Shown piece after piece: positions 80-11,904 of a stretch of 61,294 bases of DNA (its first letter is position 1; each line of letters starts with the position of its first letter). The notes below the pieces were generated by a model. It did not search any database. It was not told the DNA's origin and saw only the letters and a list, made by a program, of their open reading frames with translations. The DNA comes from Gammaproteobacteria bacterium. Lineage in GTDB: Bacteria > Pseudomonadota > Gammaproteobacteria > Xanthomonadales > Wenzhouxiangellaceae. A program made the translations under genes and the position numbers. Location of the stretch: the NCBI GenBank assembly GCA_003567685.1, contig PWYW01000055.1:1-61294 (forward strand), given 5' to 3'.

Positions 80-352
80 CAGGAGCCCTGAATGAGGCAA
101 TACTTATGCAGGTACTAGTAAGGCCCGGACACGCCGGATGCCAATCATCAACCTGGCAATCTATTTGATTGCCGCGTGAATAGCGCATCAGGCAAGCTGT
201 GGGGAAAACCGCGGATGCGACCAAAGTTTGAGCGCCAGAGCCGGGCGTTACTGTTACCTTGAGTATCAGTGGGCGGACCACTGGATTGTTTCTGCACGGA
301 GATGTTTCATGCCAGTGCCCAGAATCGACGGTCACGCGGACGGCCGGGCTCG

Positions 353-544
353 ATGAAGCGGCGGTCGCTAGTGCCGGCGCTGGCGGTACTGTTCGTGCTT
401 GCCGTTCTGCTATTCAGTTTTCCGCTGTTGCTGATCTGGGACAAGCCGGGTGAACTGCTGGGCGCACCGGTCTTGCCGCTTGGCGCGTTTCTGGTCTGGG
501 GTGGGGTGATTGGCGTGCTGGCCTGGTTAATGAGGCGGGCCTAA
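353..544 (+). CDS. Small two-helix membrane protein upstream of the symporter-kinase
   Basis: The 63-residue product starts with the basic stretch MKRR and has two hydrophobic segments, roughly residues 7-26 and 38-58, ending in RR-A. It is a small inner-membrane protein. Its TAA stop overlaps the ATG of the symporter-kinase gene (TAATG), which suggests translational coupling. Small membrane proteins often precede sodium/solute symporter genes, so an accessory role to the next gene is likely (inference). No clear Shine-Dalgarno sequence precedes this ATG, and in-frame ATGs at 302 and 269 would add poorly conserved-looking N-terminal residues. I do not recognise a named family. Confidence 0.6.
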   Translation: MKRRSLVPALAVLFVLAVLLFSFPLLLIWDKPGELLGAPVLPLGAFLVWGGVIGVLAWLMRRA

Positions 545-3282
545 TGGCAACGCTGTCGACGACCCTGGTGATTGGTGCATCGCTGGCGTATCTCGCCACG
601 CTGTTCGCTATTGCCTGGTGGGGCGACCGGCGTGCCGAATCCGGACGTTCGGTGATTGCAAGCCCCTGGGTCTATGCGCTGTCGATTGCCGTGTACTGCA
701 CGGCCTGGACCTACTTCGGCAGTGTCGGACGGGCCTCGACCGAGGGCATCTGGTTTTTGCCGATCTACCTGGGCCCGACGCTGGCAATGATCCTGGCCTG
801 GCTGGTGGTGCGCAAGATGGTGCGCATTGCCAAGACTCACCGGATCACCTCGATTGCCGATTTCATTGCCAGCCGCTACGGCAAGAGCCCGGCAATCGCC
901 GGCCTGGTCACGCTGATTACGGTGATCGGCATCGTGCCCTACATTGCCCTGCAACTGAAGGCCATCTCGGCGGCTTACCAGTTGCTCACCGAGGGCAGCC
1001 TGGTGGCCTCCAGCGCGGTCGATCCGGCCTGGTGGCAGGACTCGACCTTCTACCTGGCGCTGGCCCTGGCCGGCTTCATCATTCTGTTCGGCACCCGCCG
1101 CCTGGACATGACCGAGCGGCACGAAGGCATGGTGGCGGCCATTGCGTTTGAGTCGGTGGTCAAGCTGGTGGCCTTTCTGGCCGTGGGCCTGTTCGTGACC
1201 TTCTGGCTGTTCAGCGGGCCGGCTGATCTGTTTGCTCAGGCCATGACGGTGGAATCGCTGGCCGGTTTGATGCGTTTCGACCATGGCGGCAGCGGCCATG
1301 TCCACGCCCAGTGGTTCGCGCTGGTGCTGCTGGCCGGCCTGGCTTTCCTGTTTCTCCCACGCCAGTTCCAGGTGATGGTGGTCGAGAACGTCGATGAAGA
1401 CCATATCAAAAAGGCCAGTTGGATCTTCCCGCTGTACTTGCTGCTGATCAATCTGTTTGTCATTCCGATTGCGCTGGCCGGACTGTTGATCTTTACTGGC
1501 GGCCAGGCCGATCCCGACTTGTTCGTGCTGTCGCTACCACTGTCGGAAGGCATGGCTGCAATGGCGCTACTGGTATTCATCGGTGGTTTGTCGGCGGCAA
1601 CCGGCATGGTGATTGTCGAGGCGATTGCGGTGTCGACCATGATCTGCAACGACCTGGTGATGCCTGCCCTGCTCCGCATGCGCCGCTTCCAGGCCCGAAT
1701 TCGCGGCGACCTGACCGGCCTGATCAAGGGCATCCGGCGACTGGCCATTGTCGCGCTGCTGCTGCTGGGCTATCTCTATTTCCACCTCGCCGGCGAAGCC
1801 TATGCACTGGTTTCGATTGGCCTGATCAGCTTTGCTGCCGTTGCCCAGTTCGCGCCGGCTGCGCTGGCCGGACTGTACTGGAAAGGTGGTACGGCCAACG
1901 GCGTACTGGCCGGTTTGAGCGCGGGCTTCCTGCTCTGGGCCTACACGCTAATGTTGCCCTCATTGGCTCGCTCAGGCTGGATGTCGGCTGATTTCATCGA
2001 GCATGGGCTGCTGGGCATCAGCCTGCTGCGCCCGGAAGCGCTACTTGGCCTTGAGGGCCTGGACGGGCTGACCCACTCATTGTTCTGGAGCCTGCTATTG
2101 AACACCGCACTATTCGTCACGGTGTCACTGTCGCAACGACCCAATGCGCGCGAAGCCAGCCAGGCCCTGCTGTTTGTCGATGCACTGCAGAACACCGGCG
2201 CCCGCGAACCGGTGTTCTGGCAAGGTCGTGCCGATATTGATGCGCTCACCGCGCTGGGCCGGCGGTTTCTGGGCTCGGCGTCTACCGATAGTCTGCTCCG
2301 CGAACATGCCCGCGCTACCGGCGCGCACTCGGTTGACCAGATGCCGGCCGATGCGCGCCTGGTCCAGGCGGTCGAAACCCGCTTGGCCGGTGCCATTGGC
2401 TCGGCGTCAGCCCGATCAATGGTCGCCTCGGTGGTGGATGAAGAACCGCTGGAACTGGACGATGTCCTGCGCATTCTCGAAGAGGCCTCCCAGCTTCGCG
2501 CCTACTCGCAGGCGCTGGAAGAGAAATCGCGCTCGCTGGAGCAGGCTACCCAAGAGCTCCAGGCCGCCAACCAGCGCCTCAAGAGCCTGGACCGGCTCAA
2601 GGACGACTTCATGTCATCGGTGACCCATGAGCTGCGGACCCCGCTAACCTCGATTCGCGCGCTGGCCGAGATGATGCGCGATGAACCAGACATGCCCGGC
2701 GACCAGCGCCAGCAGTTCCTCGGCATTCTGGTGGCTGAGAGCGAGCGTCTCAGCCGACTGGTCGGCCAGGTGCTGGACCTGGCCCGCATCGAAGCCGGCC
2801 ATGCCGACTGGAACCACAGCGACGTCGACCTGGCCGAGGTGATCGAACAGGCCACCGGCAGCCTGGCTCGGCCGTTTGCCGACAAAGGCGTAGCGCTGGC
2901 GCTGGACCTGAAACCCGTGCCAACCGTCCGCGCCGATGCCGACCGGCTGGTCCAGGTGGTGCTGAACCTGCTGTCCAACGCCCTGAGGGTGGTTCCCGCC
3001 AAGACCGGGCAGGTGCGCATCCAGCTTCGCCAGAATGAAGGGCTGGTCACCGTGAAAGTCAGCGATAACGGCCCCGGCCTGCATCCCGACGACCAGGCCG
3101 AGGTGTTCGACAAGTTTCGCCAGGTCGGCGACCGCCAGCAGCGCCAGGGCGGCACTGGCCTGGGGCTGCCGATCAGCCGACAGATCATCGAACACTTCGG
3201 CGGGCGGATCTGGGTTCGCTCCCAGCCTGGCCAGGGCGCGACCTTTGGCTTTGACTTGCCGCTATCCGGTGAAAATCATTGA
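544..3282 (+). CDS. Sodium/solute symporter-sensor histidine kinase fusion (CbrA/CrbS type)
   Basis: The 912-residue protein joins an SLC5/SSS-type transporter of about 13 membrane helices (residues 1-520) to a cytoplasmic histidine kinase. A linker and coiled coil (about 640-690) precede the dimerisation/phosphoacceptor motif SSVTHELRTPLTSIRA with His695, followed by the ATPase domain: N-box NLLSNAL, G1 box DNGPGLHP, F-box and G2 box GGTGLGLPIS. In the CbrA/CrbS/MxtR family the transporter part either imports the substrate or acts as its sensor, often for acetate, histidine or general carbon status. The partner is probably the receiver protein encoded next. I see no sequence that fixes the ligand. 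A palindromic repeat starts 7 nt after the stop. Confidence 0.9.
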   Translation: MATLSTTLVIGASLAYLATLFAIAWWGDRRAESGRSVIASPWVYALSIAVYCTAWTYFGSVGRASTEGIWFLPIYLGPTLAMILAWLVVRKMVRIAKTHRITSIADFIASRYGKSPAIAGLVTLITVIGIVPYIALQLKAISAAYQLLTEGSLVASSAVDPAWWQDSTFYLALALAGFIILFGTRRLDMTERHEGMVAAIAFESVVKLVAFLAVGLFVTFWLFSGPADLFAQAMTVESLAGLMRFDHGGSGHVHAQWFALVLLAGLAFLFLPRQFQVMVVENVDEDHIKKASWIFPLYLLLINLFVIPIALAGLLIFTGGQADPDLFVLSLPLSEGMAAMALLVFIGGLSAATGMVIVEAIAVSTMICNDLVMPALLRMRRFQARIRGDLTGLIKGIRRLAIVALLLLGYLYFHLAGEAYALVSIGLISFAAVAQFAPAALAGLYWKGGTANGVLAGLSAGFLLWAYTLMLPSLARSGWMSADFIEHGLLGISLLRPEALLGLEGLDGLTHSLFWSLLLNTALFVTVSLSQRPNAREASQALLFVDALQNTGAREPVFWQGRADIDALTALGRRFLGSASTDSLLREHARATGAHSVDQMPADARLVQAVETRLAGAIGSASARSMVASVVDEEPLELDDVLRILEEASQLRAYSQALEEKSRSLEQATQELQAANQRLKSLDRLKDDFMSSVTHELRTPLTSIRALAEMMRDEPDMPGDQRQQFLGILVAESERLSRLVGQVLDLARIEAGHADWNHSDVDLAEVIEQATGSLARPFADKGVALALDLKPVPTVRADADRLVQVVLNLLSNALRVVPAKTGQVRIQLRQNEGLVTVKVSDNGPGLHPDDQAEVFDKFRQVGDRQQRQGGTGLGLPISRQIIEHFGGRIWVRSQPGQGATFGFDLPLSGENH

Positions 3283-3289
3283 AAACCAC

Positions 3290-3429
3290 TAACCGCGAAG
3301 ACGCGAAGACGCGAAGACGCAAAGAAATGAATGACAAAAACCCGGTTGCAGACATCTCGACTGATCGACAGGCGCGAGTGCTCAAAACACCCGCATCAAG
3401 CCCTTCGCGCCTTTGCCTCTTCGCGGTTA
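3290..3429. repeat. 140-bp element with inverted ends and octamer repeats
   Basis: TAACCGCGAAGA at 3290-3301 is matched by its exact reverse complement at 3418-3429. Inside the left end the octamer CGCGAAGA is repeated about four times (3294-3325, the last copy degenerate), and the right end carries related sequence in opposite orientation. It fills most of the gap between the kinase and receiver genes. From memory, repeats of this CGCGAAGA type are scattered between genes in many unrelated bacteria, giving spurious peptides rich in LRVFASSRL. Probably a non-autonomous dispersed repeat; its effect on the operon mRNA is unknown. Confidence 0.7.
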
Positions 3430-3472
3430 AAGCTTTCAAGGCGGTTACCCCAGACCTCAGCGAGACCACATC

Positions 3473-3853
3473 ATGAGCCTGAAGATTCTGATTGCCGACG
3501 ACGAACCGAACATTGTCATTTCGCTGGAATACCTGATGAAACGCGAGGGTTTTCAGGTGAGCGTGGCACGCGACGGTGCCGAGGCGCTGGCGATGATCGC
3601 CGACGACCCGCCCGACCTGTTGCTGCTTGACGCCATGATGCCCAATGTCGATGGCTTCGAGGTGCTGCAAACGCTACAGGGCCAGCCCGAGCGGCCGAAA
3701 GTGATCATGCTCACGGCCAAGGGGCGGGAATCCGACGTGGAAAAAGGCCGTGCGCTGGGCGCTGACGATTACGTGGTCAAACCGTTTTCAACCGGCGAGT
3801 TGGTCGAGCGGGTTCGACGACTGTTGTCCGACGACGGCCCGGCGCCGGCATGA
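3473..3853 (+). CDS. Receiver-only response regulator
   Basis: This 126-residue CheY-like protein has the acidic pair in LIADDEPN, phosphoacceptor Asp53 in LLLDAMMPNVDG, the Thr of MLTAKG and the Lys of VVKPFS. No DNA-binding or enzymatic output domain follows. It lies 190 nt after the symporter-kinase, separated from it by a repeat, and its stop overlaps the next ATG by 4 nt (ATGA). It is therefore the likely phosphorylation partner of that kinase, with output through protein contacts, perhaps with the membrane exonuclease whose gene it overlaps (inference). CrbR and CbrB, the partners of related kinases, carry DNA-binding domains; this one does not. Confidence 0.9.
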   Translation: MSLKILIADDEPNIVISLEYLMKREGFQVSVARDGAEALAMIADDPPDLLLLDAMMPNVDGFEVLQTLQGQPERPKVIMLTAKGRESDVEKGRALGADDYVVKPFSTGELVERVRRLLSDDGPAPA

Positions 3854-6030
3854 AGTCTTTGCAAACCCGACTTTGGCTGGCGGTGGCCCTGGTTGGCCTG
3901 GTCTGCCTGGCCTGGCTCGGCGTGGCCGCGGGCCTGCTCTACACCGTACTGGCCCCGGAAGACTGGCAAACCGTCACCGGGGCGCTGGGCGGCCGGGCCG
4001 GCTTGCTGCTGTTTCTCTGGGCCGGCGCGCTGATCCCGGTCCATGCGGCCCTGCGCGGCCTGCTGGAGCGCTACGTGGCCGCGCCGGCCCGGCTGGCCGA
4101 TGAAGCGCGGCTGCGCCTGGAAACCGGTGATTCGCGGCCGATCGAGCCGCTTGGCAGCAAGGAAACCCGTGAGCTGACCGGCATCGTCAACCGCGCCATC
4201 GAACAGCGCGACACCCTGCTCTGCCAGATGGACAACCGCATTCAGGAGGCCGCCCGCCAGACCGAGCAGGAGAAAGCCCGGCTGGCCGCGCTGATGTCGG
4301 AGCTGACCAAAAGCGTGGTGGTGTGCAACCTTGACGGCCGCATCCTGCTCTACAACCAGCGCGCCAAATTGCAGTTCAAACGCCTGTCGAGACAGGCGCG
4401 GGTGACCGGCGGCGGTGAGTTGATGGGGCTGGGCCGCTCGATCTACACGGTCATCGACCGCCAGTTGATTGCCCACGCGCTGGATAACGTGCGGCGACGA
4501 CTGCGGCGCGGCGCCGACAGCCCGTCGGCCCAGTTCGTTACCGTGACCGACTCGGGCCGGCTTTACCGGGTGCAAATGACGCCGGTTCGCCAGACTGGCG
4601 GCGAAGCGCCGACGGACGGCGAGCCCATGAGCGGCTTCGTCCTGCTGATTGAAAACATCACCGACGAACTGGCCGCCGACGAAAAGAAGAGCCGCCTGCT
4701 TAATGAACTGACCGAAGCCAGCCGCGGCAGCCTGGCCAACACGCGCGCCGCGATTGAAATTCTCGATGACCCTGACGTGGACGGCGAGCTGCGCGAGAAG
4801 CTGATGCAGGTGATCCGCGACGAGGTTCAGGGACTGAGCGAGCGCCTGACCCGTCTGCAGAGCCAGTCAACCAGCGCCCTTCAATCACGCTGGCCGCTGG
4901 AAGACATGCTGGCCAGTGACCTGCTCGACCTGGCAGGCCAACGTATCGAGGCCAGCCTGTCGCTGGCCGTCGACCGCCACTGCCCGGAAACACCGATATG
5001 GCTGAAGGTGGACAGCTATTCCCTGACCCAGGGCCTGCTGCACCTGGCCGGTCGACTGCACCAGGCATTGGCCATTGACCGTCTGCGCCTGACCATCAGC
5101 GAGCTGGACGGCCGCGCCCGGCTTGAATTGTGCTGGCCCAATGCCGGCCCGCACAACGGCCAGGCCAGTGCCCGCTGGATCGACGAGCCGATGCAGGTTG
5201 ATGGTCTTACCCTGCCCGATTCAGTGGAGCAAGTGCTCGAGCGCCATCGTGGCAGCTGCTGGCTGTCCATGCCGGCCAGCACCGAGCCGGCCGGCTTCCG
5301 GCTGCGTCTGCCGCTGGCCGTGCCCGCCGAGGAGGTCAGTGCCGTGTCCTTCGAGCACCATGAGACCCGTCCGGAGTTTTACGACTTTGACCTGTTTGCC
5401 CGCGACCACCATGACCGCTGTCTGGAAGACCGCCCCCTGACCGAGCTGAATTTTTCAGTGTTCGACACCGAAACCACCGGGCTCGACCCAGCTGGCGGCG
5501 ATCGGATCATTCAGATCGGTGCGGTGCGCATCGTCAACGGCCGGCTGCTGGAACGCGAGTGCTTCGACCAGCTGGTGGACCCGGAGCGCAGCATTCCACG
5601 CCTGGGCCAGGCCATCCACGGCATCAGCCCCGACATGGTGCGCGGCCAGCCGACCATCCGGGAAGTGCTCCCGGCCTTCCATGCCTGGTGCGCCGACACC
5701 GTACTGGTGGCCCACAACGCCGCCTTCGACATGAAGTGCCTGAGCGTGCAGTCGCCCGGCACCGGCATCGAATTTCGCCAGCCGGTGCTCGATACGTTGC
5801 TGTTGAGCGCGGTGGCCCAGGAAAATCAGGAGCGTCACAACCTGGATGACCTGGCCGAACGTTTCGGCCTGACCAACCTGGGCCGACATACCGCCATTGG
5901 CGATGCCATGGTGACGGCCGAGATCTTCGTCAAGCTGCTGCCGCTGCTGGCTGACAAGGGCATCACCACCCTGGGCCAGGCGCTCGAGGCTTCGAAAAAA
6001 ACCTACTACGCCAGGATTGATTACGGATGA
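3850..6030 (+). CDS. Membrane-anchored PAS protein with C-terminal DnaQ-like 3'-5' exonuclease
   Basis: The 726-residue protein has two N-terminal membrane helices (about 8-32 and 50-70), a HAMP-like linker, a coiled coil (about 115-150), a PAS domain (about 155-280) and a kinase-like but motif-poor middle region (280-510). The C-terminal exonuclease (about 535-715) belongs to the DEDDh class: FDTETTGLDP supplies D and E of ExoI, AHNAAFD the ExoII Asp, and HTAIGDAM the final His and Asp. It resembles the epsilon subunit of DNA polymerase III but is tied to the membrane. It overlaps its neighbours by 4 nt on both sides. The substrate in vivo is unknown. Related exonuclease genes sit beside CNB-CBS-nucleotidyltransferase genes near acetate permease in Pseudomonas (from memory). 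Confidence 0.85.
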   Translation: MKSLQTRLWLAVALVGLVCLAWLGVAAGLLYTVLAPEDWQTVTGALGGRAGLLLFLWAGALIPVHAALRGLLERYVAAPARLADEARLRLETGDSRPIEPLGSKETRELTGIVNRAIEQRDTLLCQMDNRIQEAARQTEQEKARLAALMSELTKSVVVCNLDGRILLYNQRAKLQFKRLSRQARVTGGGELMGLGRSIYTVIDRQLIAHALDNVRRRLRRGADSPSAQFVTVTDSGRLYRVQMTPVRQTGGEAPTDGEPMSGFVLLIENITDELAADEKKSRLLNELTEASRGSLANTRAAIEILDDPDVDGELREKLMQVIRDEVQGLSERLTRLQSQSTSALQSRWPLEDMLASDLLDLAGQRIEASLSLAVDRHCPETPIWLKVDSYSLTQGLLHLAGRLHQALAIDRLRLTISELDGRARLELCWPNAGPHNGQASARWIDEPMQVDGLTLPDSVEQVLERHRGSCWLSMPASTEPAGFRLRLPLAVPAEEVSAVSFEHHETRPEFYDFDLFARDHHDRCLEDRPLTELNFSVFDTETTGLDPAGGDRIIQIGAVRIVNGRLLERECFDQLVDPERSIPRLGQAIHGISPDMVRGQPTIREVLPAFHAWCADTVLVAHNAAFDMKCLSVQSPGTGIEFRQPVLDTLLLSAVAQENQERHNLDDLAERFGLTNLGRHTAIGDAMVTAEIFVKLLPLLADKGITTLGQALEASKKTYYARIDYG

Positions 6031-7316
6031 GCCAGACTGACCAACACGCGCGCTTCCTTGCCGAGGTCGCTCCCTTCTCCGAGCTGGACGATGATGCCCG
6101 TCAGGCGCTGGCCGGGCAGTTCAAACGGCTGGAGTTCAAGGCCGGCGACACCATTGGCCGCTACCCCCAGCCGGGCCGCCACGGCCTGTACGTCATTGCC
6201 GGCGGCTCGGTAATGCTGCAAACCCTGCCCGAGGGTGATGAAACGACCAGCAATCTGGAACAACGCGGTGAGGCCGAACTGTTTGGCCATCGCATCAGCC
6301 TGCCGGACGGCGTCGACGACTACCAGGCCGTGGCGGTGGAAGACTGCCGCTTGCTGCATCTCCCGGCCGGTTTTCTTGATCAGGCAATCCGCCGACACGC
6401 CATCGTTGGGCAATTCCTGGCCTCCAGCCCCGGCGAGCGGCTGCGCTCGCTGGACGACGGCCCCGTCAGCCGGCTGGCCGATCTGGCCTTGCGACCACCC
6501 ATCGTCACCGGCCCCGAGCGCAGCATTCAGGATTGTGCCCGGTTGATGGCCGAGCACGGCGTGAGTTCCTTGCCAGTGGTTTCCAAGGAAGGGCTGATCG
6601 GCATTCTCACCGATCGCGACCTGAGATCGCGGGTACTGGCTCGCGGCGTGGATCCCGCACGGCCGGTGGAAAACGTCATGACTGCGCATCCGGCGGCTAT
6701 CCGGGTCGATCAGTCGGTGGACGAAGCGCTGGTCGAAATGATGCGATTAGGGGTACATCACTTGCCCATCGTCGACCGCGACAATGGACTGCTCAGCGTG
6801 ATCAGCGCCGGTGACCTGGGCCGACTCCAGGCGCCTCACCCGCTGCAACTGGCTCGCGATATTCAGCGCTGCAACGAGATTGCCAGCATGGCCGAACTGG
6901 CCCGGCGCGGCCCCGGCATGCTGGCCGATCTGTGCGACAACGGCAGCCAGGTCAACGAGGTGGGCCGTGTGGCCACGGTCATCACCGATGCCTGCACCCG
7001 CCGGCTGATTACCCTGGCCCAGCGCGAGCTTGGGCCGGCTCCCATGGAATGGACGTGGCTGGCCTTTGGCTCCCAGGCCCGCCAGGAGCAGGGCCTGATC
7101 AGCGACCAGGACAACGGCCTGCTGATGGCCGAAGAACCCGACGCCGAGGCCAGCCGCTACTTCGAACAACTGGCAACCTTCGTCTGCGACGGCCTGAATG
7201 CCTGCGGCTATGTGTATTGCCCAGGTGACGTGATGGCCAAAGGCCGCTGGCGAATGTCGCTGGCCGCCTGGCAACGGACGTTCCAGCGCTGGATGCGCGA
7301 GCCCGACCCGCAGTAG
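6027..7316 (+). CDS. CNB-CBS-DUF294 putative nucleotidyltransferase, N-terminal part cut by in-frame TAG
   Basis: The 429-residue product begins with a cyclic-nucleotide-binding-like domain (about 10-120), then a pair of CBS domains (about 160-275; LTDRDLRSRV, GVHHLPIVD), then the DUF294 nucleotidyltransferase-like domain (about 295-429). That domain shows the signature AFGSQARQEQGLISDQDN, with the G-S and two Asp residues expected of this fold. It starts on an ATG overlapping the previous stop by 4 nt. Family members usually continue for about another 180 residues into the DUF294_C domain; here a TAG at 7314-7316 ends the frame right after REPDPQ, and the missing domain follows in the same frame. 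The product may be truncated, or the TAG may be a sequence error or a suppressed codon. Confidence 0.8.
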   Translation: MSQTDQHARFLAEVAPFSELDDDARQALAGQFKRLEFKAGDTIGRYPQPGRHGLYVIAGGSVMLQTLPEGDETTSNLEQRGEAELFGHRISLPDGVDDYQAVAVEDCRLLHLPAGFLDQAIRRHAIVGQFLASSPGERLRSLDDGPVSRLADLALRPPIVTGPERSIQDCARLMAEHGVSSLPVVSKEGLIGILTDRDLRSRVLARGVDPARPVENVMTAHPAAIRVDQSVDEALVEMMRLGVHHLPIVDRDNGLLSVISAGDLGRLQAPHPLQLARDIQRCNEIASMAELARRGPGMLADLCDNGSQVNEVGRVATVITDACTRRLITLAQRELGPAPMEWTWLAFGSQARQEQGLISDQDNGLLMAEEPDAEASRYFEQLATFVCDGLNACGYVYCPGDVMAKGRWRMSLAAWQRTFQRWMREPDPQ

Positions 7317-7862
7317 GTGATGAATTCCAGCATCTTTTTCGACCTGCGCGGCGTGGCCGGCAAGCTGGAACTGGCCGAGACCCTGCAGCGCGAAGTGCTC
7401 GACCAGGCCCGGCAAGAGAAAATCTTCCTGCGCTTCCTGGCCGCCGAGTCGATCGGCCACCGGCCGCCGCTGGGGCTGTTTCGCCAGTTCGTCCAGGAGC
7501 GCGACGGCGCTCACAGCCAGGGGCTTAACCTGAAAAAACGCGGGGTGATTCCGATTGTTGACCTGGCCCGGGTGCGGGCCCTGGAAAGCGCCATCAGTGC
7601 CGTGCATACCGAGCACCGCATCCAGGCCGCCGCCGAGCACGGCCCGATGCACCCGGACGATGCCAATGACCTGATGCACGCCCTGCGCTTTATCGGCAAT
7701 GTCCGCCTGCGCCACCAGGTACGGCTGTACCGTCGGGGAGAAAAACCCAACCACCTGGTCGACCCGAACGAACTCTCGGGCCTGCATCGTCGCTACCTCA
7801 GATCAGCCTTCGGCATCGTCGCCAACGCCCAGAAAGGCCTGGCCCAGCGCTATCAGGTTTGA
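7317..7862 (+). CDS. DUF294_C domain, C-terminal part of the split nucleotidyltransferase
   Basis: Directly after the TAG the same frame continues for 181 residues (GTG at 7317 or ATG at 7320). It begins with SSIFFDLRGVAG, the conserved opening of the DUF294_C helical domain, and runs to a natural-looking end at RYQV. Together with the upstream part it gives about 610 residues, the normal length of the intact CNB-CBS-DUF294-DUF294_C family. I see no Shine-Dalgarno sequence apart from AGGTG, which abuts the ATG too closely. Separate translation by termination-reinitiation is possible but unproven; otherwise this is the tail of a pseudogene or of a frame interrupted by a base error. Confidence 0.7.
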   Translation: MMNSSIFFDLRGVAGKLELAETLQREVLDQARQEKIFLRFLAAESIGHRPPLGLFRQFVQERDGAHSQGLNLKKRGVIPIVDLARVRALESAISAVHTEHRIQAAAEHGPMHPDDANDLMHALRFIGNVRLRHQVRLYRRGEKPNHLVDPNELSGLHRRYLRSAFGIVANAQKGLAQRYQV

Positions 7863-11148: not shown

Positions 11149-11904
11149 ATGGGCAAGCTCAATCAGCTCGATCTCGCCACCGCCATCGACAAACCCGCCT
11201 ACAAACGATTACTCAAGAGCTGGCAACTGGATTTGCTGAGCCTGCAGCAATCGGTGCTGCGCGAAGGTGGCCGTATGATCATCAACGTCGAAGGCATGGA
11301 TGCCGCCGGCAAGGGCGGGGCCATTCGCCGACTGGTGGAAAAACTGGACCCGCGTTCCTACAAGGTGTACCGCATCGGCGCGCCGGCCGACTGGGAGCAG
11401 GCGCGCCATTATCTGTTTCGTTTCTGAACTCGAATCCCGGCGCCTGGCGAACTGGTGATATTCGACCGGTCCTGGTACGGGCGGGTTCTGGTCGAACGGG
11501 TAGAAGGCTTTGCCAGCGAGTCGGAGTGGCAGCGGGCCTATCGGGAAATCAACGACTTCGAGCGAATGCTCACCGACGACGGCGTGATCCTCAGGTCACT
11601 CTGGTTCCACGTCGACCCGGACGAGCAGCTGAAACGCTTCGAAGCCCGGCTGGCCAGCCCGTTCAAGGCCTGGAAAATGACCGATGAAGACTGGCGCAAT
11701 CGCTCGCGCTGGGACGACTACGTGGCGGCGGCTGAAGACATGTTCGACCACGCTCAACAATATGGCTCACCGTGGACGCTGATACCGGCCAACTGCAAGC
11801 GGCATGCACGACTGGCCGCCCTGCGAGTGGCCGTCGAGGCACTGGCCGACGAGGCCAAGCGCCGGCAGATAGCCACGCACCCGCTTACTTTGGCCAAATT
11901 CTGA
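11149..11904 (+). pseudogene. PPK2-family polyphosphate kinase, split by in-frame TGA
   Basis: One continuous frame of about 250 residues is interrupted by TGA at 11425-11427. The first part (92 residues) has Walker A GMDAAGKGGAIRRL and ends RHYLFRF; the second resumes TRIPAPGELVIFDRSWYGR, with the Walker B/lid region and VLVERVEGF. Family members have Trp after RF (RFW), so the stop is best explained as TGG to TGA. PPK2 enzymes move phosphate between polyphosphate and nucleoside mono- or diphosphates. The break separates Walker A from Walker B, so neither piece should be active alone. AAGGA lies 7 nt before the ATG, so the start site looks intact. A recent pseudogene, a base error or TGA readthrough remain possible. 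Length and organisation fit a single-domain PPK2. Confidence 0.85.

Follow-up and report, generated by a model that had tools for sequence, protein, structure and literature searches.

A conserved kinase, receiver and exonuclease cluster in Pseudomonadota: probably an SLC5/STAC two-component system with a DivL-like relay into a nuclease

Response regulators that consist of a receiver without an output domain are common and, to our knowledge, mostly unexplained, and each raises the question of where its signal goes. Here we address this question for a locus on contig PWYW01000055.1 (G000:C57) of the gammaproteobacterial assembly GCA_003567685.1 (Wenzhouxiangellaceae); the whole contig, 61,294 nucleotides (nt) in full, is referred to as the window. 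Positions 353-7862 of its + strand hold an operon of, in that order, an open reading frame (ORF) of 63 amino acids (aa), a sensor histidine kinase (K), a lone receiver (R), a membrane protein that ends in an exonuclease domain (E), and a nucleotidyltransferase (D), the frames of all of which were checked. The K-R-E-D cluster is conserved, genuine and coherent, and probably represents a two-component system of the SLC5/STAC type that feeds a nuclease through a relay like that of DivL. The likely partner of the lone receiver, its docking domain and its catalytic output would then be encoded alongside it.

The protein on which this reading turns is E, which an earlier note on this DNA, made from the sequence alone, had described as an exonuclease fixed in the membrane behind a PAS domain. 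The exonuclease is borne out by a match to RNase_T (1.6e-37), but a degenerate histidine kinase in the middle of the protein (approximately residues 271-492) had been overlooked. A profile built from 60 E sequences and searched against the Protein Data Bank (PDB) matched the VicK-like kinase 4i5s at 3.6e-17 over residues 254-499, 4u7n at 1.5e-7, and further WalK-type kinases. The AlphaFold2 model of E (mean pLDDT 84.7, pTM 0.52, with a low-confidence linker before the exonuclease) placed a WalK model and 4i5s at the top of the Foldseek ranking, matching domain by domain. In an alignment of 99 E proteins longer than 600 aa, 97 of them different, the acceptor histidine that a canonical histidine kinase carries is found in none (0/99), and Glu occupies that position (289) in 82/99. 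Where kinases carry HELRTPL, E mostly reads LTEGSRxxLAN, and the correspondence of His to Glu is plain in the E paralogue of Competibacter and its kin, e.g. TEDLRRPLANLRAAAE. The ATP-binding motifs are likewise gone (DxGxG in 4/99, the GxGLG type in 0/99, the N-box in 1/99), as opposed to K, in which HELRTPL, DxGxG, GxGLG and the N-box are all present in 65/65 sequences of at least 300 aa. Judged by residues and fold matches, E can be classed as a pseudo-histidine-kinase that appears to have kept the DHp/CA fold and lost its phospho-His and ATP motifs.

The pseudokinase part lies between a putative sensor region and a catalytic domain. At the N-terminus the model shows two long helices (2-33 and 36-92) that form a hairpin, hydrophobic as judged by eye, and the PAS fold that follows is matched by PAS_4 at 0.0029, under the curated cut-off. 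At the C-terminus all five DEDDh residues are invariant (99/99), and structure comparison with PolC 9qpc gave Z 24.6 and an rmsd of 1.8 over 191 aligned residues; the VIA-align 2 list from which such matches come covers the exonuclease domain only and holds nothing on the kinase part. An anti-phage role was also considered; PADLOC matched E in its DEDDh domain only (CRISPR-associated DEDDh, PDC-S48), and neither K nor the first part of D had a match. Residues and the RNase H-like fold thus predict a DEDDh 3'-5' exonuclease. In fold and in the five catalytic residues it resembles the DnaQ-type enzymes (PolC exo, epsilon, DinG, RNase T, ExoX), unlike which it sits behind a membrane sensor rod and not with a polymerase or helicase.

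The input side of the operon is K. The earlier note had called it a symporter-kinase, and the transporter part holds through homology, residues 5-627 matching 10ed_A (a "histidine kinase" of 606 aa in the PDB) at 4.8e-71, even though Pfam SSF gave no match at E 0.1. From its name and length we infer that 10ed is the structure of CbrXA (CbrA SLC5-STAC) of PMC13022988. With HisKA at 6.1e-19, HATPase_c at 1.5e-30 and the intact motifs counted above, K is by its sequence a predicted member of the SLC5/STAC sensor histidine kinases; no PAS or receiver domain was found in it with Pfam. A small ORF with two hydrophobic segments, picked by hydrophobicity score, stands directly before K in 49/50 loci tested, and 31 of those 50 loci, the window included, carry an alignable peptide family (A2) in which P24, W49, I53 and A57 are invariant. 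The peptide is reminiscent of CbrX of Pseudomonas, a two-helix peptide of approximately 58 aa that overlaps the kinase start and co-purifies with CbrA (PMC13022988, PMC6591292). The likeness consists of position, size, overlap and hydrophobic pattern, and a PDB profile search for a sequence link between the 63-aa peptide and CbrX returned no match. The arrangement resembles the CbrXA-CbrB histidine transceptor in its small overlapping upstream peptide, putatively two-helical, its SLC5-STAC sensor and its kinase domains (PMC13022988, PMC6591292), and departs from it in that no PAS was found in K and that the neighbouring R has no AAA+/HTH output.

For R, the claim of a receiver with no output domain is upheld, PF00072 being its sole Pfam match. 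The DNA-binding output expected of CrbS/R or CbrA/B regulators is absent, R consisting of the receiver domain only. Receivers beside E measure 119-135 aa, counted from the aligned start to the stop, in 74/74 sequences, all of which (74/74) keep D53 and K103. R would be the cognate partner of K.

We lean towards a two-component system with a non-transcriptional output, in which the signal would pass from K to R, by docking to the pseudo-DHp, and on to gating of the exonuclease. K would sense a small nutrient through its SLC5-STAC part, the CbrX-like peptide acting as an accessory subunit, autophosphorylate at H695 and pass the phosphate to D53 of R. R~P would then dock on the pseudo-DHp of the membrane protein E, which has Glu289 in place of the phospho-His, and docking would alter the PAS-DHp-CA rod and so gate, at the membrane, the DEDDh exonuclease fused to it. 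The same pathway would be served by D, a nucleotidyltransferase of the GlnE/GlnD type whose ligand domains are CNB and CBS. The pseudo-DHp may thus be a candidate docking site for R on the exonuclease protein; docking and the direction of control, and likewise the nuclease substrate of E, are what we infer from this analysis. The ligand would be acetate- or pyruvate-like, to judge from neighbouring transporters and the literature on CrbS/R.

A precedent for such a relay is DivL, which acts on another kinase. Unlike DivL, E carries a catalytic output of its own, the exonuclease, and the acceptor His is replaced by Tyr in DivL and mostly by Glu in E. The two share a histidine kinase fold without phospho-His, an adjoining PAS, and a single-domain receiver as partner (here a presumed one); DivL has no kinase or phosphatase activity, binds DivK~P specifically, and uses its transmitter core as a sensory module (PMC4211667). 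The features on which the argument draws are collected in Table 1.

Table 1. Positions of the operon parts in the window, and of two related features elsewhere.
Feature	Position	Strand	Basis or remark
Small membrane peptide resembling CbrX, of 63 aa, with two hydrophobic segments	353-544	+	position, size, topology; stop overlaps K start by 1 nt
K, SLC5/STAC-type sensor histidine kinase, 912 aa, H695 in HELRTPL	544-3282	+	10ed_A, HisKA and HATPase_c matches
Hairpin-forming interspersed repeat in K-R gap	3290-3429	.	fold z = -4.47; repeated in genome
R, single-domain receiver, 126 aa; D9, D10, D53, T81, K103	3473-3853	+	PF00072 4.9e-31 over residues 5-115
E, 726 aa: membrane hairpin, PAS, pseudo-histidine-kinase, DEDDh exonuclease (predicted)	3850-6030	+	alignment, AlphaFold2 model
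E residues 150-270, PAS fold	4297-4659	+	model secondary structure; weak PAS_4 match
Pseudo-DHp of E (residues 271-340), with R292 and with Glu289 (codon 4714-4716) where the phospho-His would be	4660-4869	+	4i5s profile match
E residues 347-492, pseudo-CA without ATP-binding motifs	4888-5325	+	motif counts
E residues 505-726, predicted DEDDh 3'-5' exonuclease (D539, E541, D627, H680, D685)	5362-6027	+	RNase_T 1.6e-37
D first part: CNB, two CBS, DUF294 nucleotidyltransferase	6027-7316	+	PF00027 3.8e-9, PF00571 2e-24, PF03445 4.4e-44
In-frame TAG, D codon 430	7314-7316	+	nine residues before invariant Asp of FFD
D second part, same frame: strand with invariant Asp, DUF294_C	7317-7862	+	PF10335 1.9e-41
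CrbS-like hybrid SLC5 kinase	G000:C33 (L173) 209-3793		near end of 8.9-kb contig
Second E paralogue	L158-L163, genomes of L072, L079, L083, L093, L100, L110		just upstream of K in 6/6

That the operon is tightly built was part of the earlier description, which spoke of five genes with overlaps of 1-4 nt except for one repeat-filled gap. The overlaps are 1 nt between the 63-aa ORF and K (TAATG), 4 nt between R and E (ATGA) and 4 nt between E and D (ATGA), and the 190 nt between K and R (3283-3472) contain the repeat, a 16-mer of which has eight matches in the genome at no more than one mismatch (two of them overlapping inside the gap) and none when reversed as a control. The spacing therefore stands as described, as do all five frames; the count of five genes needs the qualification that D is not intact, an in-frame TAG splitting it.

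Conservation of the arrangement was examined in the best 80 loci drawn from 582 relatives among 597 stretches, the nearest relative among the named listed loci being a Wenzhouxiangella metagenome-assembled genome (MAG). Among listed loci with enough flank, R lies directly upstream of E in 58/77, and K upstream in the order K-R-E in 50/71. D occurs anywhere in the locus in 60/80 and adjoins E in 39/76 (on the same strand downstream in 22/76, convergent in 17/76); it was not seen in the available stretch of 20/80, some of these stretches being incomplete. An SSF symporter occurs anywhere in 43/80 and acetyl-CoA synthetase in 9/80. In the laboratory strain Paracoccus denitrificans PD1222 the module is on plasmid 1, in the order PDEN_RS25395 (a nucleotidyltransferase substrate-binding protein of the DUF294 type), RS25400 (a small ORF), RS25405 (K), RS25410 (R) and RS25415 (E), with short overlaps. 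The earlier note had proposed that co-occurrence restricted to close relatives would refute its reading; the gene order recurs far beyond them.

A survey of 396 Pseudomonadota genomes, each at least 95% complete, with E called at 1e-55 or better and a K orthologue at 550 bits or more, found E-type proteins in 51 genomes, the K orthologue in 32 and both in 26. E was thus present in 26/32 genomes with K vs 25/364 of the others (Fisher p 4e-21, kinship ignored). Closer to the window, among 61 relatives (its own genome included) 16 carry K at 70% identity or more, and all of these (16/16) have a strong match to E; of the 22 relatives with a strong E, K is cut by the contig end in two (G008, G021) and no such K is found in four (G007, G018, G023, G026). 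Recurring synteny and co-occurrence together support the view, already put forward, that the genes form a single conserved module placed downstream of an SLC5/STAC-type sensor. Apparent E-D or R-E fusions in these data were rejected: open frames of 1399-1460 aa suggesting E-D fusions in G005, G013 and G015 have a stop between E and D, and in four loci flagged as fused (L082, L088, L089, L106) the alignments overlap in another frame. In genomes of family f74 (e.g. G237, G423, G413) E-type open frames are only approximately 470-610 aa long.

Co-occurrence can also be read otherwise. R could serve other kinases, e.g. the CrbS-like hybrid, as a phosphate shuttle or sink, with E an operon passenger, a metabolic nuclease whose PAS does its own sensing. 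We hold this to be unlikely. Twenty-four genomes without K at the E locus (21 with at least 3.5 kb of upstream sequence, three with less) were searched in full for K, which lay elsewhere in 10 and had no match in 14; in these 14 of the 24, E persists with its PAS and exonuclease kept, as expected of a passenger. The loci L073, L089, L091 and L103, in the order R-E-D, have no adjacent K, though K and R stand together elsewhere in those genomes. A possible alternative donor is at hand as well, the genome of the window holding a second SLC5 kinase on contig C33, a CrbS-like hybrid of 1194 aa with PAS, HisKA, HATPase and receiver domains. What a shuttle leaves unexplained are the frequent short overlaps between R and E and the fate of the DHp domain once K is lost.

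If R acts through the pseudo-DHp of E, that domain should be kept where K and R are present and drift where they are not. The 99 E proteins were sorted by where K is found: in the same locus for 67, elsewhere in the genome for 10 and nowhere for 18 (K-minus, the 14 plus four relatives), with 4 unclassed. Glu289 is kept in 64/67 of the first class and 10/10 of the second, and in 4/18 K-minus proteins. Similarity to the K-plus profile, expressed as the ratio of DHp to exonuclease, falls from 0.622 with K to 0.412 without (p 8e-10, kinship ignored), and the PAS/exonuclease ratio is 0.794 vs 0.771 (p 0.17, kinship ignored). On a tree of E from which the N-terminus and the kinase part were left out, the module has to be lost or gained in 6 changes. 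Set against sister lineages matched for exonuclease identity, the DHp residuals are -1.1 to -4.0 standard deviations (sd) in 7/8 K-minus lineages, and in the same seven the PAS residuals range from -1.7 to +1.1, a drop that is not consistent, and those of CA from -2.3 to +1.8; among module-bearing controls, each compared with its six nearest, 2/78 fall below -1 for DHp. The eighth K-minus lineage (L109) shows no DHp loss, and there a receiver of another type (36% identity to R) adjoins E. L014 lacks K, has R beside E and keeps the motif; it was counted as having the module in the tree and residual tests. Among the 10 genomes whose K is not at the E locus, R adjoins E in four, which have a K-R pair at another place, and in the other six (Competibacter and kin) K lies beside the second E paralogue, upstream of which a receiver is found in one of the six (L159).

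Several points weigh against docking through the pseudo-DHp or lessen the force of these comparisons. The loss is not confined to DHp, the CA/exonuclease ratio also falling from 0.665 to 0.589 without K (p 0.001, kinship ignored), CA standing at -2.3 sd in the K-minus clade of the relatives, about as much decay as in DHp, and PAS at -1.7 sd in the Rhodocyclales clade. An independent-pairs test on Glu289 had 4 usable pairs, of which an average of 3.2 changed in the expected way and none in the opposite, for a non-significant p of 0.125-0.5, and the eight K-minus lineages and their sisters were picked after the tree had been seen. K-minus calls depend in large part on MAGs, some of them incomplete, and R was not sought genome-wide. 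In the six genomes with a second paralogue, beside which K lies, the E that was counted has kept its DHp with no R in its own vicinity. Mutual information between R and E in 65 triplets (Neff 27) was dominated by gaps and gave no result, the K-R positive control failing too. The full-length kinase matches in Foldseek have TM-scores of approximately 0.2 and rmsd above 20, so the kinase domains of E match but their arrangement differs. In the survey, the thresholds (550 bits; 1e-55) were fixed after the lists had been seen and the Fisher p ignores kinship; at these thresholds E is missing from six genomes with K, and K from 25 with E, and 11/51 E matches have open frames below 620 aa, in which a part of the sensor may be missing.

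The last gene, D, had been described as a CNB-CBS-nucleotidyltransferase; its cNMP_binding, CBS and DUF294 domains are all present, but the gene is interrupted. Past the TAG the reading frame resumes with GTG ATG and is open to 7862, so that GSxxRxEQ...DQDN, the third Asp and DUF294_C, which lie in one protein in the uninterrupted D of the homologues compared, are here all in frame and split by the stop. In 16 non-self homologues of at least 50% identity the TAG position is Ser in 15 (TCG in 12) and Ala in one; L005 and L032 are one locus counted twice among the D homologues. The catalytic residues, and likewise the Asp of FFD (Asp431 in L032), are invariant in all 22 aligned D proteins, and in the model of an intact relative the TAG position precedes a nucleotidyltransferase strand. 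Since the stop comes before both the invariant Asp and this strand, the 429-aa product should be inactive, and the D arm in this genome is probably dead or split.

The TAG raises the question of whether the operon here is functional at all. PPK2 polyphosphate kinase, approximately 4 kb downstream (11149-11904), is also broken, by an in-frame TGA at 11425-11427 (YLFRF*TRIPAPGE), at a position which we take to be that of a Trp in the family; the other PPK2, on contig C48, is free of internal stops. Reassignment of a stop codon was considered as the cause of the TAG and rejected: none of the 43 ABC_tran matches in the genome (0/43) has an internal stop and the stop in PPK2 is TGA, which makes a genome-wide change of code unlikely. 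The stops in this stretch are either real nonsense mutations or else errors. If the TAG were a sign that the operon is decaying in this strain, or a fault of the assembly, the window would show little that is functional, a view to which two broken genes approximately 4 kb apart in a genome with stop-free ABC_tran matches, and the long end branch of the window E (0.54), lend some weight. We regard it as improbable, given that K, R and E are free of stops and keep their catalytic residues, and that conservation in other genomes is independent of this one.

D also bears on the function first suggested for the operon, in which E opposes D, a protein or RNA being nucleotidylated by D and the nucleotide taken off again by E, both set by a nutrient signal. 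D is frequent in the listed loci, and the nearest solved fold of the D model from the intact relative is GlnE adenylyltransferase, the catalytic residues of D being invariant as are the DEDDh residues of E; DUF294_C has moreover been grouped with the substrate-binding domains of GlnD/E (PMC3710099). D thus resembles GlnE/GlnD-type nucleotidyltransferases in nearest fold and in DUF294_C class (PMC3710099), and is unlike them in its N-terminal CNB and CBS and in its interruption in this genome. As set out above, D adjoins E in about half of the loci that could be scored, is not seen in others and is broken here, and the Pseudomonas putida phenotype on pyruvate belongs to the exonuclease mutant only and not to that of pp_0354, the CBS protein (PMC9927547). 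Reversible nucleotidylation is conceivable, but that the operon works by setting E against D seems to us highly doubtful. The more elaborate version, in which E, switched by R~P, would trim 3' nucleotides at the membrane, undo or limit ligand-gated additions by D, and thereby tune acetate or pyruvate uptake at the post-transcriptional or post-translational level in many Pseudomonadota, we also judge to be a long shot.

The earlier note mentioned exonuclease/DUF294 pairs near acetate permease in Pseudomonas, correctly, as the pair adjoins actP/yjcH (PMC9927547); that no mechanism had been described needs amending, in that the pair is already a target of the SLC5/STAC system MxtR/ErdR (CrbS/R) and a phenotype on pyruvate is reported for deletion of pp_0353 (PMC9927547). 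CrbS/R (MxtR/ErdR) controls PP_0354/Pflu5625, a CNB-CBS-nucleotidyltransferase (PMC5715377, PMC9927547), with which PP_0353 (RNase_T) shares an operon; deletion of PP_0353, not of PP_0354, slows growth on pyruvate, and growth on acetate is unaffected by either (PMC9927547). The present locus is like CrbS/R in its SLC5/STAC kinase, its exonuclease and CNB-CBS-nucleotidyltransferase genes, and its link to acetate/pyruvate and ActP (PMC5715377, PMC8402216, PMC9927547). It differs in that the regulator of CrbS/R is a transcription activator (of the LuxR family in Sinorhizobium fredii, PMC9100948) with the gene pair as its transcriptional targets, whereas here a lone receiver lies in one operon with an exonuclease fused to a membrane PAS-pseudokinase. 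In that literature PP_0353 is presented as an RNase_T protein and no more, and the contrast with E is one of description, not of sequence.

Another role for E would be that of a membrane mRNA-turnover factor that trims transcripts of transporters or central metabolism independently of D, with control by K and R as in the relay proposed here. The authors of PMC9927547 speculate that the pp_0353 product degrades mRNA, and the apparent N-terminal helical-hairpin anchor and the DEDDh fold would suit such an enzyme. The nearest structures (PolC, epsilon, DinG) nevertheless act on DNA, and no RNA-binding domain is seen in E with Pfam. Moreover, DEDDh enzymes also cut DNA and dinucleotides. We regard this role as possible, albeit on the unlikely side.

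No description of the K-R-E wiring was found in the open-access literature, most subscription papers lying outside that scope. Acinetobacter AmsSR and the Xanthomonas orphan regulator RR35 were considered as described members and rejected, the accessible parts of PMC10112286 and PMC7698356, respectively, giving no link. An SLC5/STAC system linked with this exonuclease and nucleotidyltransferase is known; the lone receiver and pseudokinase-exonuclease in the kinase operon are, as far as searched, undescribed. If the proposed relay from K through R to E is true, a histidine kinase fold would have been turned into the input module of an RNA- or DNA-trimming enzyme, and SLC5/STAC sensors would have a second route to acetate/pyruvate metabolism besides transcription by CrbR/ErdR. 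It would be an unusual nutrient response without direct gene activation, and would give the puzzling Pseudomonas exonuclease/DUF294 pair a testable role.

Two minor observations concern the surroundings of the operon. In six relatives (G002, G006, G015, G019, G022, G025) a CrbS-like kinase lies divergent from K on the same contig, 1.5-5.5 kb away, and because these relatives carry both kinases close together, C33 and the start of the window may be neighbours. In L046 (6259-6615) and in 20 other loci the SSF transporter upstream of K or E is followed by a conserved protein of approximately 119 aa, for which Pfam gives a weak cytochrome b561-like match that does not reach the cut-off.

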